NCBI GenBank assembly: GCA_938017505.1
Contig: CALIKV010000010.1
Coordinates: 1-64,000 of the forward strand
Length of the DNA: 64,000 nucleotides
Source of the DNA: an uncultured Sulfolobales archaeon
Lineage (GTDB): Archaea > Thermoproteota > Thermoprotei_A > Sulfolobales > NBVN01
Direction of reading: 5' to 3'
Below the pieces are notes generated by a model. That model was not told the origin of the DNA and did no database searches. It saw only the letters and a program-made list of their open reading frames with translations. Shown piece by piece: positions 10,955 to 41,821 of the stretch. The position numbers and the translations under genes were made by a program. Position 1 is the first letter of the stretch. Every line of letters begins with the position of its first letter.

Positions 10955-12364
10955 ATGCGCAGATTAGCTGTTATAGCCTTAATCACATTGATGATAATAC
11001 CTCTTGCTGGTTTAATGAACTCTCCGGTGGAGGCAGCTAAGGTAGGTATAGGTATATTGGTTGACATGTCCCATGGACAGACTGTTGGTGGTTTAGTTGA
11101 AATGATGAAGATGGTTCCCGAGGGGAACTGGGTTGTCTTGTTACCTAGTGGAGGTGATCCAGGAATTCTACCAGACTATGTCAGGAGTAATGCTGAGGTT
11201 AGGTACGGCGGCTTTACCGCCACGACCCTGAGGGATGTTGAGGTAGTTATTATCGGTCAGGCGCTGAGCCTACTATCCCCTGAAGAGCTCTACGCTCTGG
11301 TCGGGTGGTTCAACGGAGGAACGCCAAGGGCCATATGGGTTGCAGGGGATAGCGACTACCCGGCTCAAGGCAATGAGATAGCTCAGCAAGTCGTTAACAT
11401 GGTCGCTGAAGCGATAGGCGCGCATCTAAGGATAGATTACGTGGCCGTAGACGATACCTTATCCAACGCTAAGGCGACGTACAGGGTTGTAGGCACTGTC
11501 GACCCGGACCCCGAGGTCGCGGAACTGAAGTACGGTGTTAACGTATCGCTCTTCCACGGTCCAGGACCGCTGGCGGCCGTCCTAGACGACGGGACGTGGG
11601 TAAACCCAATAGAGGTGAAAATACCTAACGTCTACGTAGTGGCCAGAACCACTGAGGGAGGGAAGATATCGGAGTATCAGCCCTCAGCGCCTGGGGCTCC
11701 AGGCATGATTCATCAGCTCTACTCACCAGGGGATATAGGGGTCTACCCACTACTAGCTGTCGAGATACTGCCCAACGGCAACAGATTCATAGTAAGCGGC
11801 GAATCACCCTACGGAGGATATCAATCAGGACTAACGTACGTATACTATGGCGTAGTGATGCAGGGATCGAGGCTCTTCAGAAACCTCGTTCTATGGGGTG
11901 CTAAGTACTACGGCGAGTTGCTGGCCTACAAAGAACTACTGGAGGGCAAGAACGTGTTGCTGGATTTAGTGAATAAAGCTGAGGAACTGAGTTCGCATCT
12001 AACCGCGCTCGCGTCACAAGTCAATAGTTTATCAGGATCCCTAAACACCGTGAAATCAACGGTTGATTCACACACCACACAGATAAGGGACGTAAGCGGT
12101 CGGTTAAGCGCTTTAGAGGGCACTGTTAATGCTCAGAGCACGCAGCTTAGCTCGCTCAACAGCAAGCTAAACGGCCTCGAGTCACGTGTCTCAAGCGTGG
12201 AGGGCTCGGTCAGCACGCTCAACACTAAAGCAGGCAGTCTTGAATCGCGAGTCACAGGTCTAGAGGGTGCTGCAGGGAATATAACCACGGCATTAGCTTT
12301 GGGCGGCGTGGCCCTGGTTCTCTCACTAGTTTCGGTGATCATGGCCTTTATGAAGAGGAAATAA
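10955..12364 (+). CDS. Surface-anchored coiled-coil protein with GATase-like N-domain
   Basis: A predicted secreted, membrane-anchored protein of about 469 residues. It has an N-terminal signal segment (RRLAVIALITLMIIPLAG), a domain of about 300 residues with alternating strands and helices starting VGIGILVDMSHGQ (resembling the Rossmann-like GATase/DUF4350 type seen in archaeal transport clusters), a heptad-rich coiled coil (about 330-430, many Ser and Leu), and a C-terminal membrane helix followed by MKRK. ATG 10955 is chosen because GAGGTG lies upstream at 10942-10947. It begins the block with permease and ATPase, so it may be an accessory of that transporter at the S-layer. The function is not established. 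Confidence 0.7.
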   Translation: MRRLAVIALITLMIIPLAGLMNSPVEAAKVGIGILVDMSHGQTVGGLVEMMKMVPEGNWVVLLPSGGDPGILPDYVRSNAEVRYGGFTATTLRDVEVVIIGQALSLLSPEELYALVGWFNGGTPRAIWVAGDSDYPAQGNEIAQQVVNMVAEAIGAHLRIDYVAVDDTLSNAKATYRVVGTVDPDPEVAELKYGVNVSLFHGPGPLAAVLDDGTWVNPIEVKIPNVYVVARTTEGGKISEYQPSAPGAPGMIHQLYSPGDIGVYPLLAVEILPNGNRFIVSGESPYGGYQSGLTYVYYGVVMQGSRLFRNLVLWGAKYYGELLAYKELLEGKNVLLDLVNKAEELSSHLTALASQVNSLSGSLNTVKSTVDSHTTQIRDVSGRLSALEGTVNAQSTQLSSLNSKLNGLESRVSSVEGSVSTLNTKAGSLESRVTGLEGAAGNITTALALGGVALVLSLVSVIMAFMKRK

Positions 12365-12542
12365 CCATATCGTTTTTCTTTAAACCCCTTACCTTCATAT
12401 CAGGTGGTCGAGAACCGTAGAGCACGTTGTTAACTTGGTCTTAGGACAGAGCACCTTTTCTTGAAGCCTGTTGATTTATGGCGGTAACGCTTCTATCGCA
12501 TTATTGGCGGATTCCCTCAATCTCTTAAGGTTTTAAGTTTTA

Positions 12543-36464: not shown

Positions 36465-37565
36465 GTGCTGGATAGATTCGCTAAATTAGTTGCTGAATAC
36501 TGCACCGGCGTTAAACCGAATGACGAGGTTGTGATCACTTCAACCTACGAAGCGTATCCGTTAGTGCGTGAGTTATGGAGGGAGACTGTGATGAGAGGTG
36601 GTTACCCTAGGTGGAATTTAAGTGACGAGGTTCTTGGCGAGATATTCTACAGGTATGCCTCAGAGGATCTCTTGAGGCATCAATCCAAGATAGATGAGTT
36701 CATGAGTGAGAACGTTAACGTGAGAATCTCAATACTCTCCTCAACCCACTCAAAGTATCTGGTGAGCGTGGAGCCCGAGAGAATCAAACTAAGGGCTCAA
36801 GCCACGCGTAAGTTAAGTGAGATATTCATGAGGAGGGATAGTGAGGGCTCCCTTAGGTGGGTTGTCACCGCATACCCAACTAGATCCATGGCTCAGGAAG
36901 CCGGTATGTCCCCACTAGAGTATGAGGACTTCGTCTTCAAATCACTTAAGCTACACGCTGAAGACCCTGTTAAGGCCTGGGTCTTGCAGGCGGACACGCA
37001 ACGGAAAATAGCGGACAGCCTCAGCAAGACCTCCGAGGTAAGGATTGTCAGTGACGACACTGACATAACCCTTAAGGTTGAGGGGAGGACTTGGATCAGT
37101 GATGACGGTAAGAATAACATGCCTGGAGGAGAGGTCTTCACAGGTCCTCACGAAGACTCCACCGAGGGGGTCATCAAGTTCGACTTCCCAGCCATATGGA
37201 GAGGGGTTGAAGTAAGGAATGTCAAGTTAATCTTCAAGAGAGGCGAGGTAGTGGAAGCCGAGGCTGAGGTGGGCGGCGAATTCCTTAAAAAGATGCTCGA
37301 AACTGATGAAGGAGCAAGGAGGTTAGGTGAATTAGCCTTCGGACTTAACTACGACATAACTAGGTTCACCAAGGAAATACTCTTCGATGAAAAGATAGGA
37401 GGCACCGTACACGTGGCCTTAGGAGCATCATACTTAAAGACGGGAGGAACCAATAAGTCGTCAATACACTGGGATCTAATAAAGGACATGAAGAGGGGGA
37501 AGGTCTTCGCCGACGGTGAGCTAATATACGAAAACGGCCGATTCCTCGCGGAGACGCTTAAATAA
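36465..37565 (+). CDS. M29 family leucyl aminopeptidase
   Basis: A thermophilic (AmpS/aminopeptidase T type) metallopeptidase of 366 residues releasing N-terminal amino acids. Family signatures are the N-terminal YCTGVKPNDEVVI, the metal-ligand stretch NMPGGEVFTGPHEDSTEG (about 213-230), EVGGEFL, and the C-terminal ELAFGLNYDITRFTKEILFDEKIGGTVHVALGASY and SSIHWDLI with Glu, His and Asp ligands. GTG 36465 follows GGTGG. It is divergent from gdhA; together they turn peptides to 2-keto acids. Confidence 0.9.
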   Translation: MLDRFAKLVAEYCTGVKPNDEVVITSTYEAYPLVRELWRETVMRGGYPRWNLSDEVLGEIFYRYASEDLLRHQSKIDEFMSENVNVRISILSSTHSKYLVSVEPERIKLRAQATRKLSEIFMRRDSEGSLRWVVTAYPTRSMAQEAGMSPLEYEDFVFKSLKLHAEDPVKAWVLQADTQRKIADSLSKTSEVRIVSDDTDITLKVEGRTWISDDGKNNMPGGEVFTGPHEDSTEGVIKFDFPAIWRGVEVRNVKLIFKRGEVVEAEAEVGGEFLKKMLETDEGARRLGELAFGLNYDITRFTKEILFDEKIGGTVHVALGASYLKTGGTNKSSIHWDLIKDMKRGKVFADGELIYENGRFLAETLK

Positions 37566-37651
37566 AGCGGGGTTTATTTTTAACCACCCATGAAGGATGG
37601 GACTTAAACCTTAAAGAACCCGCGAAAGATAAGGATTTATAGATTCGTAAT

Positions 37652-37663
37652 CCTTATATATTA
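37652..37663 (+). promoter_or_regulatory. Promoter of the three-gene unknown operon
   Basis: CCTTATATATTA is a strong TATA box. Transcription would begin near 37684, at or just after the first start codons, which suggests a leaderless message. An earlier element GGATTTATAG at 37633-37642 would allow a leader containing AGGAGG (37663-37668). Confidence 0.55.
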
Positions 37664-37678
37664 GGAGGCTGGTAAGTT

Positions 37679-38752
37679 TTGGTGAGCTTAGAGGCGCTAC
37701 ATATATTTGAGAGCTTTTTAAGCTCCCTGGATCTCCTAGACTACAATAAGCTAGCTGTAATTACGGAGACTCCGTACACTGACCTCCTAGTGGATTCCCT
37801 TATAAATAAGGGCTATACTATGGTTAGAGTGAAGGAGGATTCTAAGGACCTCCTTAAATTCATCAGGCCGAACACCTACTTAATTTCTAGGTCTTATAGT
37901 CTGGTCCAACCTTACAGTGCCTGGATGAGCTATCTAGATAGGGGTGATGTCTTAATGCGCGAGATCACGCTCTTTTCATCGTTAATTACGGAGGAGGTCA
38001 GCGAGCTCTTCCTCCTATTTAAAGTACGCGCAGAGGATTTCTTCCTGGCTTACAGGGTGCTTGAGGAGTTCAGAGGCTTTAGGGGGGGTGGAGGAAGGGT
38101 TGAGGCATTAATACTAATAGAGGATGACCTGAGCCTGATAGATAGGTTTAACCTAGTTACCTTCCTGGCAAGGGCATTGACGGAGAGGCTTATCACTAGG
38201 GTGCATATCTTCAGGTTAGATAGATTACGTAGATACCTACACCCCAATGTCTTGGATGACTTGCTCAAATGGGGCTTAAGGATCTACTCTGAGTATATAG
38301 GTAAAGACATCCTGTTAACGGATACTAGGGAGGTGAGGCACATCTACTTCGTGTCATTGCTTGATATCAGTGACGCCTCCCTGCTGATTAAAAACCTGGC
38401 GGGGGCTTCACAACTAGCTAAGTTCCTCACCTGGGGCATTGTGTTCACGAGTAGTATGGGGTACGCGCATCTGAAGGGCAATGAGGAGCTCCTCAATCAA
38501 GTGAACATATCGGATTTAGTGAAGGCTTGCGGTTGGATGGTCCATAAAATTGTTAACCCCGTGTTCACTGCTACAGATCACGTGCAACTGTTCCTTGCGG
38601 AGAGTAGTGAGGAACTGCTGAGGACCCTTTCAAGCGATATATGGAACGTGACCAGCCTCTTAAGTGAGGAGGAGAGGAGCCTCAAGGTGCTCCTACCCTT
38701 CATGAAATTGACTAGGGAGTTTGTATCAGAGATTATGAGGGGACCAGGTTGA
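37679..38752 (+). CDS. Unrecognised soluble protein, first gene of unknown operon
   Basis: 357 residues with no membrane helix and no motif I can name. Alternating strands and helices occur in two parts: residues 20-120 (KLAVITETPYTDLLVDSLINKGYTMVRV...) and 140-240 (VEALILIEDDLSLIDRFNLVTFLARALTERLITRVHIFRL). The first looks like a small Rossmann-like domain, but there is no Walker A or GxGxxG. A Gly-rich linker GGGG separates them near 137. The C-terminal 130 residues are helical. TTG 37679 or GTG 37682 is the start. The stop overlaps the next start by TTGA, so the partner is surely the membrane protein. Confidence 0.7.
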   Translation: MVSLEALHIFESFLSSLDLLDYNKLAVITETPYTDLLVDSLINKGYTMVRVKEDSKDLLKFIRPNTYLISRSYSLVQPYSAWMSYLDRGDVLMREITLFSSLITEEVSELFLLFKVRAEDFFLAYRVLEEFRGFRGGGGRVEALILIEDDLSLIDRFNLVTFLARALTERLITRVHIFRLDRLRRYLHPNVLDDLLKWGLRIYSEYIGKDILLTDTREVRHIYFVSLLDISDASLLIKNLAGASQLAKFLTWGIVFTSSMGYAHLKGNEELLNQVNISDLVKACGWMVHKIVNPVFTATDHVQLFLAESSEELLRTLSSDIWNVTSLLSEEERSLKVLLPFMKLTREFVSEIMRGPG

Positions 38753-40941
38753 GTGAACCCACGCTAGTTAAGTACTGGAGGTTAAGGAGGGTCTGGGCTT
38801 CTCTCCTGATCTCTCTTTGGATAGTACTAACAAGTTACGCGTTAGGTCTCTTGAAAGAGCCCGTGGGTATACCTATAACAGGTTCTTTAGTAGTCCTGAC
38901 GTTAATCGCGCCGTTGATTTACTCTAAAAACGTCCCCAACTACGACGCGATAATATTCACGCCTTTATTCGTGAGTTACATATTGCTTATCAACGTAGCT
39001 TTCTCACTCCCTGCAGTTGAGATGTCTTTAGTCGGGAGTCTTTACGTTATATTCTCCACACTACTGCTCAGCGTCGTCATCACGTGGAACCTAGTCACTA
39101 AGCTGAGCGTTTGGGAGCTTGCAACACATTTACCGATCTTCTACTTCCTGACTCTAACCCTGTTGGAGGTGGAGGGCCTCGGACTCAATGCATACATGTT
39201 TGTCTGGATACTTGCTCTAGCCACCCTAGCGGTCAGGAGCTCTAAGGCATTCATATCAGGCCTCATGAGTCTCTCACTTTCTCTGCTCGTATTCCTAGGC
39301 GTTCATTACCTAGTGCCTGAAATATCTGCAGTGCCTCACGTGCACCTCATGGCACCTGCTGAACTCACGTACTTTTACCTGTCTGTACTCATAAGCTTCA
39401 CGATAACCTCGTTCACATCACTGCTCACACGTGCGGGATTGAAGAGGGAAGCTAACATAGTGGTGGTGATGCTGAGCTACTTAATACCGCTCATCACGTT
39501 CGTGGGACTCTTCTACTTGTCTATGTCAGCGTTAAGATTCGAGGTATTCTACAGCTACATAGAGTTCAATATGGCATCAGCTATCCTCACAGGCATCATA
39601 ATGTCCTCCCTAGCTACATCAATGTACTACACGAGAACACTCTCGGAAGTTAGGAGAGACCTGGCCTCTGCTTTGGAAAAGCAATCCCGTGAAATTGAGT
39701 CCTTGAGGCTAGTCCTACAGGAGATGATGAGGAGAGGTTTATGGGATGAAGGCGAGCTTAAGTCCGCTGAGGATAGGTTGCTCAGCCTAGCAAAAATAAT
39801 TGAGGCTTCGAGAGTAGAGCTCACGAAGAAATTGTTAAGTACCGCGAGGCTTCAAACGTTCAGGGAAACGATCGAGTTCATGGAGCGTGAGACACGCGAC
39901 ATATCGGGAACCCTAGTATCAATGTATAACAAGTCTCTGAACACCTTATCGAAGGCCGTCGCGGTGGTGTCGGCAACGCCGTACAGCGAGTCCTCGAAGG
40001 AGAGATTATCGAGACTACATGAGGTGGATACTGTTAAGGATATTCCAACCTACATAGGGCTCGTAGAGGATTTGTTGAGAAATAACTGCCTAAGACTTAA
40101 GGACTTAGTCCTTAACACGTACGTAGCGCTCGCAGAACAACTCAATATCACCTCAGTGAGGATAGGTAAGGTAACAGATATAGAGTGCTCAACAAGTACA
40201 ACGGTGGTTAAGGACCTGGATTTAATACTGAGCACCTACGCCGATCTAATGGACTTAGCAATCCCTAGACTGAGAAGCATACATAGCGGGTTGCTAAGCA
40301 GTAAGGGTTTAGTGGATGGCTTGTTAAGGAAGCTGAGTAAGAAACCTTTGAAAGGACTGGACTCTCCAGCAGTTGTTGATAAAATATATCACGAACTAAC
40401 TGAGACTCCGGAGGTGTTCAGCGAGTCTGAGATGATGCTCTTTTTAAAGAGGTATACGACTACCTACAATAACTTGGTTAGCCTCCTAAGCGAGTTAAGC
40501 GACGCCCTGACGACGGACTTAAGGGGGGTGGTTCTGAAGATCAAGTCCATATACGGAGAAAACGTCGATATAGAGGACTTGTTTTTAGGTCGTCTGAAGA
40601 GATACATAGATTTAGTTAAGGCGAAGGTGGGTAAGGAGAGCATCAAGTCACCACCCAACCTCATAGAAGGCTTTAACGAGATTCTCAAAGAACTGCCGAG
40701 CATACTCGAGAACACGTCTGTGGTTTTAGAAAGACTCATCATCCTAAATAATTTAGCTGAGCACCTACCTCTCTTTAGCGACTACGTGATGTATGAGCTT
40801 ATGCGGAAGGGCGCTCTGAGCGTCAATGAGCTGCCTTTCACTACAGAGGTCTCGGTGCAGTTAGTGTGGATCCTGCTGATGAGCAGAAACGATATAGAGG
40901 TTCGTGAGGGTTCAATATATCTTAAAGGGAGGAGCGTCTAA
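38749..40941 (+). CDS. Ten-helix membrane protein with coiled coil and winged-helix-like end
   Basis: 730 residues. About ten membrane helices occupy residues 15-285. A long helical cytoplasmic part follows: a heptad-like coiled coil (about 295-370), further helical bundles to about 660, and a C-terminal stretch (about 675-730) reading YELMRKGALSVNELPFTTE...WILLMSRNDIEVREGSIYLK, which looks like a winged helix. There is no kinase, cyclase or ATPase motif. The topology resembles a sensor or membrane scaffold. Start TTG 38749 follows GAGGGG and overlaps the upstream stop (TTGA); the next gene starts one base after the stop. Confidence 0.7.
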   Translation: MSEPTLVKYWRLRRVWASLLISLWIVLTSYALGLLKEPVGIPITGSLVVLTLIAPLIYSKNVPNYDAIIFTPLFVSYILLINVAFSLPAVEMSLVGSLYVIFSTLLLSVVITWNLVTKLSVWELATHLPIFYFLTLTLLEVEGLGLNAYMFVWILALATLAVRSSKAFISGLMSLSLSLLVFLGVHYLVPEISAVPHVHLMAPAELTYFYLSVLISFTITSFTSLLTRAGLKREANIVVVMLSYLIPLITFVGLFYLSMSALRFEVFYSYIEFNMASAILTGIIMSSLATSMYYTRTLSEVRRDLASALEKQSREIESLRLVLQEMMRRGLWDEGELKSAEDRLLSLAKIIEASRVELTKKLLSTARLQTFRETIEFMERETRDISGTLVSMYNKSLNTLSKAVAVVSATPYSESSKERLSRLHEVDTVKDIPTYIGLVEDLLRNNCLRLKDLVLNTYVALAEQLNITSVRIGKVTDIECSTSTTVVKDLDLILSTYADLMDLAIPRLRSIHSGLLSSKGLVDGLLRKLSKKPLKGLDSPAVVDKIYHELTETPEVFSESEMMLFLKRYTTTYNNLVSLLSELSDALTTDLRGVVLKIKSIYGENVDIEDLFLGRLKRYIDLVKAKVGKESIKSPPNLIEGFNEILKELPSILENTSVVLERLIILNNLAEHLPLFSDYVMYELMRKGALSVNELPFTTEVSVQLVWILLMSRNDIEVREGSIYLKGRSV

Positions 40942-40942
40942 G

Positions 40943-41821
40943 ATGTCAACCAGATGCTTCGAGAATGAGCATGAATACAAGTGCAGAGTATGGCTAAGTG
41001 ACGTGACGTTAGTTTTAGAGAGGCAAGAAATAGTGGGTGAAGTTAAGAAGATCCCGATTCATGATATTAAAGAGTTAGTATGGCGCTCGGAAACCTCGCT
41101 TGAAATTACGACGCTAGACAACGCCTTCTTCGGAATCATCGTCAACGATTTAATCAAGAAGGACGTTGAACTACTCACCTTCCTGCACAAATTTATAAAA
41201 GAGCGGCAAGACCTGATGGGGGTTCTGGAGGAGGCCTTACATAACTATGTCTGTCTGATCTCCCCCGTCTTTAGGATTCTAAGCGTTCTGACAAAGGGTT
41301 ATATTCCTGAGTGGGCTCTTTTGACTGAAACGTCAAGAAGGCTGCAGGATCTCGTAGAGGCCATCGGGTCGTTGACCAGCCTTAGGGACTTCGGCAAGAA
41401 TGTAGCTGGTTACCTGAAAGTGTTGAACAATTCCATGGAGAGGAGGAACGTAACAGCACTAATAAACGTCTCCAGGAACTATGTAAAGTACGTCACAGGC
41501 TACTTTAGCGAAGTGATAATGAAGGTGCCTATACCTATTGACCTAACGTATTTAATAGACCTGACCTTAGTTGCATTTACATATTACTACTCAAGAGAGC
41601 TTAGACTACCCCTCCAAGCAGAGAGGGCCCGTAATGAATTCAAGCACCTGACGAATGAGCTGGTTTTAAAGACGTACATAACTGATAAGGTGTTCATAGA
41701 TAGAGTGATGACGTCGTACGAATTAATACTGGAGTCGTCGAGAAGCCCTGAAGAAATACCGCAGAGACTCTTAGAATCCCTGCATGAGGAGCTATTGAGG
41801 TACGTCACACAGCCTACGTAA
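40943..41821 (+). CDS. PH-like domain protein, third gene of unknown operon
   Basis: 292 residues. The N-terminal 80 residues look like a PH/GRAM-type beta-barrel (YKCRVWLSDVTLVLERQ..., IHDIKELVWRSETSLEITTLDNAFFGIIV) closed by a helix, as if binding a lipid or protein tail. The rest is an all-helical domain. ATG 40943 has GGGAGGAG upstream, within the end of the previous gene, and the gap is one base, so it belongs to the same operon. No function is known. Confidence 0.65.
   Translation: MSTRCFENEHEYKCRVWLSDVTLVLERQEIVGEVKKIPIHDIKELVWRSETSLEITTLDNAFFGIIVNDLIKKDVELLTFLHKFIKERQDLMGVLEEALHNYVCLISPVFRILSVLTKGYIPEWALLTETSRRLQDLVEAIGSLTSLRDFGKNVAGYLKVLNNSMERRNVTALINVSRNYVKYVTGYFSEVIMKVPIPIDLTYLIDLTLVAFTYYYSRELRLPLQAERARNEFKHLTNELVLKTYITDKVFIDRVMTSYELILESSRSPEEIPQRLLESLHEELLRYVTQPT

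Follow-up and report, generated by a model that had tools for sequence, protein, structure and literature searches.

What kind of system is encoded by three tightly packed archaeal genes whose products match no named protein family? This question arises from a locus in a 64,000-nucleotide stretch of contig CALIKV010000010.1 from an uncultured archaeon of the Sulfolobales (referred to as the window), on the plus strand of which gene A (37679–38752, 357 amino acids, TTG start) is followed by gene B (38749–40941, 730 amino acids, TTG start) and gene C (40943–41821, 292 amino acids, ATG start). Scans of the three proteins against Pfam and NCBIfam named no family and yielded weak noise only, just as a preliminary description of this DNA had termed them unrecognised. 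We consider it probable that A-B-C derives from an uncharacterised system of the Thermoproteota that combines a tubulin with a membrane anchor, and that in this tubulin-free form a pseudo-tubulin (A), a polytopic anchor (B) and a PH-like protein (C) would act together as a membrane scaffold.

Conservation of the Operon

The open frames of the window display the TTGA overlap between A and B and the spacing of a single base between B and C from which a compact three-gene operon had been proposed. For C, an earlier in-frame start is possible (GTG at 40904), but close relatives start at the same M/L-STRC. When the genomes of relatives were searched and their loci read, A-B-C was found across nearly every genus of the window's family. 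Order and strand are identical at all 21 family loci that carry the three genes on one contig. At intact loci, the A-B gaps (computed, like all intergenic gaps here, from longest-frame starts) range from −17 to +7 bases and the B-C gaps are comparably small or overlapping, with the exception of a single locus, L048, at which C starts 234 bases further on. At this locus (12140–12378, genome G005), the match to C runs across a TGA, which may reflect a frameshift or an assembly error.

At least one of the three genes is present in 25 of the 31 family genomes, among them all 11 with at least 90% completeness and at most 5% contamination; the six genomes without any of them are only 56–82% complete. 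The genes flanking A-B-C change between genera, and the triplet therefore travels as a unit. Within the family, the identity of the operon proteins falls to about 16–20%. The operon is thus confirmed to be real and beyond chance, despite this strong divergence: the triplet is not absent from related genomes, and the order and strand kept at 21 of 21 intact loci, together with the short gaps, bear out the earlier claim of one conserved operon.

Relatives in Tubulin_2 Operons

A plain search with B across the genome contigs returned no relative. The B profile recovers long membrane proteins from further families, both in the order and elsewhere in the phylum, with matches that include the C-terminal part and not the coiled coil alone; matches confined to the coiled coil (columns about 290–400, many genomes) were excluded as homologues. 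B homologues counted in this manner occur in 12 genomes of seven other families (G032, G042, G053, G061, G138, G162, G180, G213, G241, G303, G495 and G520), that of G061 being truncated by the contig end, and every one of these 12 genomes encodes a Tubulin_2 protein. A recurrent set of genes surrounds these homologues, which comprises, besides B and a C-like protein, a secreted protein (SEC, about 315 amino acids) that has a signal peptide and a single membrane helix, the Tubulin_2 domain protein of 870–890 amino acids with intact GLGGTG-like and GGGTGSG loops (TUB), and a protein of 330–390 amino acids that features a zinc ribbon in some lineages (ZN). The set is arranged either as SEC-TUB-(ZN antisense)-B-C (L159, L184, L321, L325) or as SEC-TUB-B-ZN followed by a small C-like gene (L146, L148, L149, L322, L324), and in one genome it is divided between two contigs (L147 and L180). 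In this genome, a soluble protein of unknown kind with 661 amino acids (L147, 10470–12452) is encoded upstream of B at the usual tubulin position, while the tubulin of that genome resides on L180.

In profile-profile comparisons, B of the window's family matches B of the tubulin operons with E-values of 1e-19 to 1e-20 and scores of 170–173 versus 66–71 for the reversed control, the height of the latter being due to the coiled coil. Likewise, C matches C of the Tubulin_2 operons over its full length (E 3e-7). The controls consisted of 40 column-shuffled profiles and a reversed one; none of the 40 shuffles reached the scores of the B, C, A-ZN or ZN-FtsZ comparisons, and the B-B, C-C and A-ZN comparisons also score above the reversed control. 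Judged by these profiles, it is well supported that B and C have a common origin with proteins whose genes lie next to that of the Tubulin_2 GTPase in seven other families. Linked homologous B and C genes, a trait of the tubulin-ZN-B-C operon of Thermoproteota, are also found in A-B-C.

Protein A as a Predicted Pseudo-Tubulin

The profile of A, built from all family members, matches ZN (E 2e-5), which in turn matches archaeal FtsZ/CetZ (E 6e-4). Searched against all PDB sequences, the ZN profile gave seven matches under E 10, six of which are CetZ, FtsZ or tubulin proteins (best E 0.004, CetZ2); the PDB profile search with A alone gave designed proteins only, with E above 0.4. At the level of profiles, A is homologous to ZN, a distant FtsZ/CetZ relative that lacks the GTP loop. 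The large tubulin of the operon was also considered as the source of A; the notion of a degenerate copy was rejected for lack of profile similarity (E 0.18), the counterpart of A being ZN.

The tubulin-like prediction for A was recorded from the ZN sequence before its AlphaFold2 model was available. The model was built without templates from a four-sequence alignment (sequences gathered via the neighbouring HAD gene numbered four for A and five for C). It runs strand-helix-strand-strand-helix-strand-helix-strand-helix-strand-long helix, then strand-helix-strand-helix-strand-strand, which we take to be the order of elements in FtsZ, the fold of which comprises an N-terminal alpha/beta domain, the long helix H7 and a mixed sheet at the C-terminus. 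Upon comparison with the PDB by Foldseek, 45 of the best 50 matches are gamma-tubulin, CetZ, TubZ, BtubA, FtsZ and microtubule tubulins, and all four matches under E 0.001 (best E 3.6e-4) fall into the tubulin superfamily. An FtsZ/tubulin fold without a GTP site is moderately supported by this model, and the two alpha/beta parts without nucleotide-binding loops that had been ascribed to the first protein agree with it.

The GTP loop GGGTG[TS]G (T4) was found in none of 22 A sequences and in none of 11 ZN sequences. Where FtsZ has GGGTGSG, the ZN proteins of two distant lineages (L321, 7088–8260, and L325, 5855–7009) carry DGVGSG or DGVGSA. This DGVGS[GA] motif looks like a decaying T4 loop and may represent an intermediate on the way from tubulin to pseudo-tubulin.

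Conceivably, A is still a filament-forming tubulin, so that the operon would encode a minimal cytoskeleton anchored by B, the filaments of which would assemble either in the absence of GTP or by way of a rebuilt nucleotide site. Such a role would fit the predicted tubulin-superfamily fold of A, which is the sole candidate of this superfamily found in the family genomes, as well as the dedicated membrane anchor and the PH-like partner in the same operon. We nevertheless regard it as unlikely, since the T4 loop is missing in all 22 A sequences checked and since A, in contrast to tubulins that polymerise, diverges very fast, down to 16–20% identity inside a single family.

Proteins B and C

According to hydropathy, B of the window has eight strong membrane segments and its relatives have 9–10, all within about residues 1–295; in B of the window, the membrane helices span residues 17–295 or thereabouts. 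The ten helices counted in the preliminary description are plausible, with 8–10 as the safer figure, and its view of a many-helix membrane protein that also contains a coiled coil is supported. The membrane part is followed by a long, helical soluble part with the coiled coil and then by a winged-helix-like C-terminal end with a conserved ELPF motif. Two cysteines of the soluble part (residues 447 and 480) do not vary across the family alignment and could form disulfides or metal sites.

The conserved, helix-turn-helix-like ELPF end and the many membrane helices of B could also be those of a membrane-bound sensor or regulator, in which this end binds DNA or protein and A and C serve as signalling partners. 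However, the C-terminal end of B has no match to DNA-binding families in Pfam, NCBIfam or the PDB; the PDB profile matches of B comprise coiled coils and helical bundles only and were dismissed as an effect of composition. As the homologues of B moreover accompany a tubulin GTPase and not regulators, a regulatory system appears quite unlikely.

The AlphaFold2 model of C is confident (mean predicted local distance difference test score (pLDDT) 88, predicted template modelling score (pTM) 0.75) and shows seven strands and a long helix, followed by an all-helical bundle. It thus contains the seven-strand barrel capped by a C-terminal helix that defines the PH-like superfold, and it corroborates the PH-like barrel that had been suspected at the start of the third protein. 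Foldseek matches of C are mostly PH, PTB and FERM-F3 domains with a probability of about 1 but E-values of 0.02–0.1, and a PDB profile search with C gave nothing meaningful. Residues 5 and 14 of C are near-invariant cysteines close to the start, which could likewise take part in disulfides or metal sites.

Probable Loss of the GTPase and Weight of the Evidence

Searches for Tubulin_2 (PF13809) and Tubulin (PF00091)/FtsZ were negative in all 31 family genomes, and the profile of the operon tubulin detected no GTPase in them either; its match in the window's own genome (E 0.015, 64 columns) was judged to be due to chance. In a tree of B, the family and the Tubulin_2-operon groups lie on opposite sides of one well-supported branch. 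The spread of tubulin operons over several distant families makes loss of the GTPase the simpler history for the window's family. Most likely, this family lost both the GTPase and SEC and kept the remaining module.

Several points weigh against this derivation of A-B-C from a tubulin system. The B tree is unrooted, so that histories other than loss of the GTPase, although less simple, are conceivable, and the absence of SEC from the window's family refers to the A-B-C loci. Two partial B-like frames that were not counted (L326, L327) have no tubulin on the stretch read, the rest of their genomes not having been searched, and the small C-like protein of the second layout compares to C with E 0.01, at which homology is not clear. 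As for A, its direct profile comparison with FtsZ (E 0.38) is no better than shuffles, so that the link passes via ZN; its model is of low confidence (mean pLDDT 50, pTM 0.56) and reaches template modelling scores (TM-scores) of only 0.36–0.46 to tubulins.

The negative direct comparison and the low pLDDT, along with some short-chain dehydrogenases among the Foldseek matches, would also be expected if A were a generic Rossmann-like alpha/beta protein, in which case the weak model would have produced a spurious tubulin match and the profile chain from A via ZN to FtsZ would mislead. We deem this very unlikely, given that the tubulin superfamily makes up 45 of the best 50 Foldseek matches, that the A-ZN E-value of 2e-5 is reached by none of 40 shuffles and that ZN independently matches CetZ/FtsZ in the PDB.

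Possible Function

In the proposed tubulin-free scaffold, B would anchor the complex to the cytoplasmic membrane and extend its coiled coil and C-terminal end into the cytoplasm, and A and C may bind to this cytoplasmic part. The barrel of C could recognise lipid head groups, or else a peptide of B or A, while A would be a nucleotide-independent scaffold or cap with a tubulin fold rather than a GTP-driven filament. Going by the anatomy of the complete system, filament dynamics may come from the tubulin GTPase and a link across the membrane from SEC, so that in the A-B-C family a static scaffold or cap alone would remain. The role of such a module is likely to be local organisation of the membrane or envelope, that is, shape, constriction, vesiculation or positioning of the surface layer. 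Of the membrane sensor or scaffold with lipid-binding partners that had been guessed in the preliminary description, the part concerning a scaffold with partners comes close to this explanation. A bolder version, which we put forward tentatively and with somewhat less than even confidence, is that A, as a pseudo-tubulin, forms a scaffold or even polymers on the membrane independently of GTP, together with a polytopic anchor and a PH-like adaptor of its own, and that this module outlived its GTPase partner.

If true, a tubulin-derived cytoskeletal module would exist in archaea thought to be devoid of any tubulin-superfamily protein. To our knowledge, crenarchaeal lineages are usually described as lacking FtsZ or tubulin, scattered FtsZl1 proteins excepted. 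In addition, an operon for SEC, a tubulin GTPase, a predicted pseudo-tubulin, an anchor and a PH-like protein is newly defined in several lineages of the Thermoproteota, one family of which keeps the last three only. Named partner proteins are now available for asking by what means a tubulin-like GTPase is attached to the archaeal membrane and what the tubulin fold does without GTP, and this question would be genetically testable in tractable laboratory archaea with the full operon.

Genomic Surroundings

A putative promoter and leader of gene A was found by eye at 37637–37669 (plus strand), with a TATA-like TTTATA (37637–37642) and a Shine-Dalgarno-like GGAGG near 37664. The preceding gene ends at 37565 and is unrelated to the operon. 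Downstream of C, the opposite strand carries, judging by inspection, a phosphatase-like gene of the HAD type and a pair of genes resembling subunits of indolepyruvate oxidoreductase; the flanking genes, named in the same manner, appear metabolic. In several genera, a lipoate-like gene cluster adjoins A-B-C (L188, 7937–11538, with equivalents in L050, L054, L056 and L058), which contains two radical-SAM-like genes, a ligase-like gene and a small companion gene, the functions being assigned by eye only.

Comparison with Known Systems

FtsZl1, including one crenarchaeal member fused to a transmembrane part, was described by Makarova and Koonin in 2010, and FtsZl1/Tubulin_2 (PF13809) proteins were predicted there to form membrane-remodelling systems (PMC2875224). 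Later papers mention them in passing as divergent FtsZ-like sequences (PMC9871819, PMC9723716). The homologues of B and C share operons with such a Tubulin_2 protein, which has an N-terminal FtsZ domain, a coiled coil and a helical C-terminal part, and the system is membrane-linked. In contrast to the published FtsZl1 operons, A-B-C comes without a Tubulin_2 protein, a vWA protein or a kinase, and Pfam detects none of the vWA, kinase or OmpA-type partner domains in A, B or C. Conversely, the main text of the 2010 paper lists neither B nor ZN/A nor C as a partner (PMC2875224). No literature was found on B, ZN, C or a tubulin homologue without GTP loop in such an operon, with subscription journals mostly uncovered and priority hence not proven.

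The operon of the transmembrane-fused crenarchaeal FtsZl1 (SSO1376 type) was rejected as the same system, as neither the membrane protein nor the small protein encoded there matches B or C. A second Tubulin_2 operon occurs in one genus of large complete genomes (L177, 4847–10776; L178, 5424–11706; L181), the partners of which are a membrane protein of 750–830 amino acids and a protein of 262–264 amino acids, again without a match to B or C. Its Tubulin_2 protein carries membrane helices in L178, and in L181 the tubulin frame is broken beside two near-identical inverted gene copies, which recalls the transposon-broken SSO1376 of the literature.

The two-domain fold of the archaeal CetZ/FtsZ proteins (PDB 4b45, 3zid) is predicted for A at low confidence, and ZN aligns to them over T4 to H7; in contrast to them, A lacks the GTP loop, shows about 10% identity and is probably no GTPase. 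PH, PTB and FERM-F3 proteins likewise combine a seven-strand barrel with a long helix as found at the start of C, whereas C is archaeal, fused to an unrecognised helical bundle and without a sequence match to PH families. Finally, FtsZ is anchored to the membrane by SepF, ZipA and EzrA. No sequence relation of B or C to these anchors was found, and B is polytopic with 8–10 helices; the job proposed for B and C, that is, tying a tubulin-fold protein to the membrane, would nonetheless be analogous to theirs.

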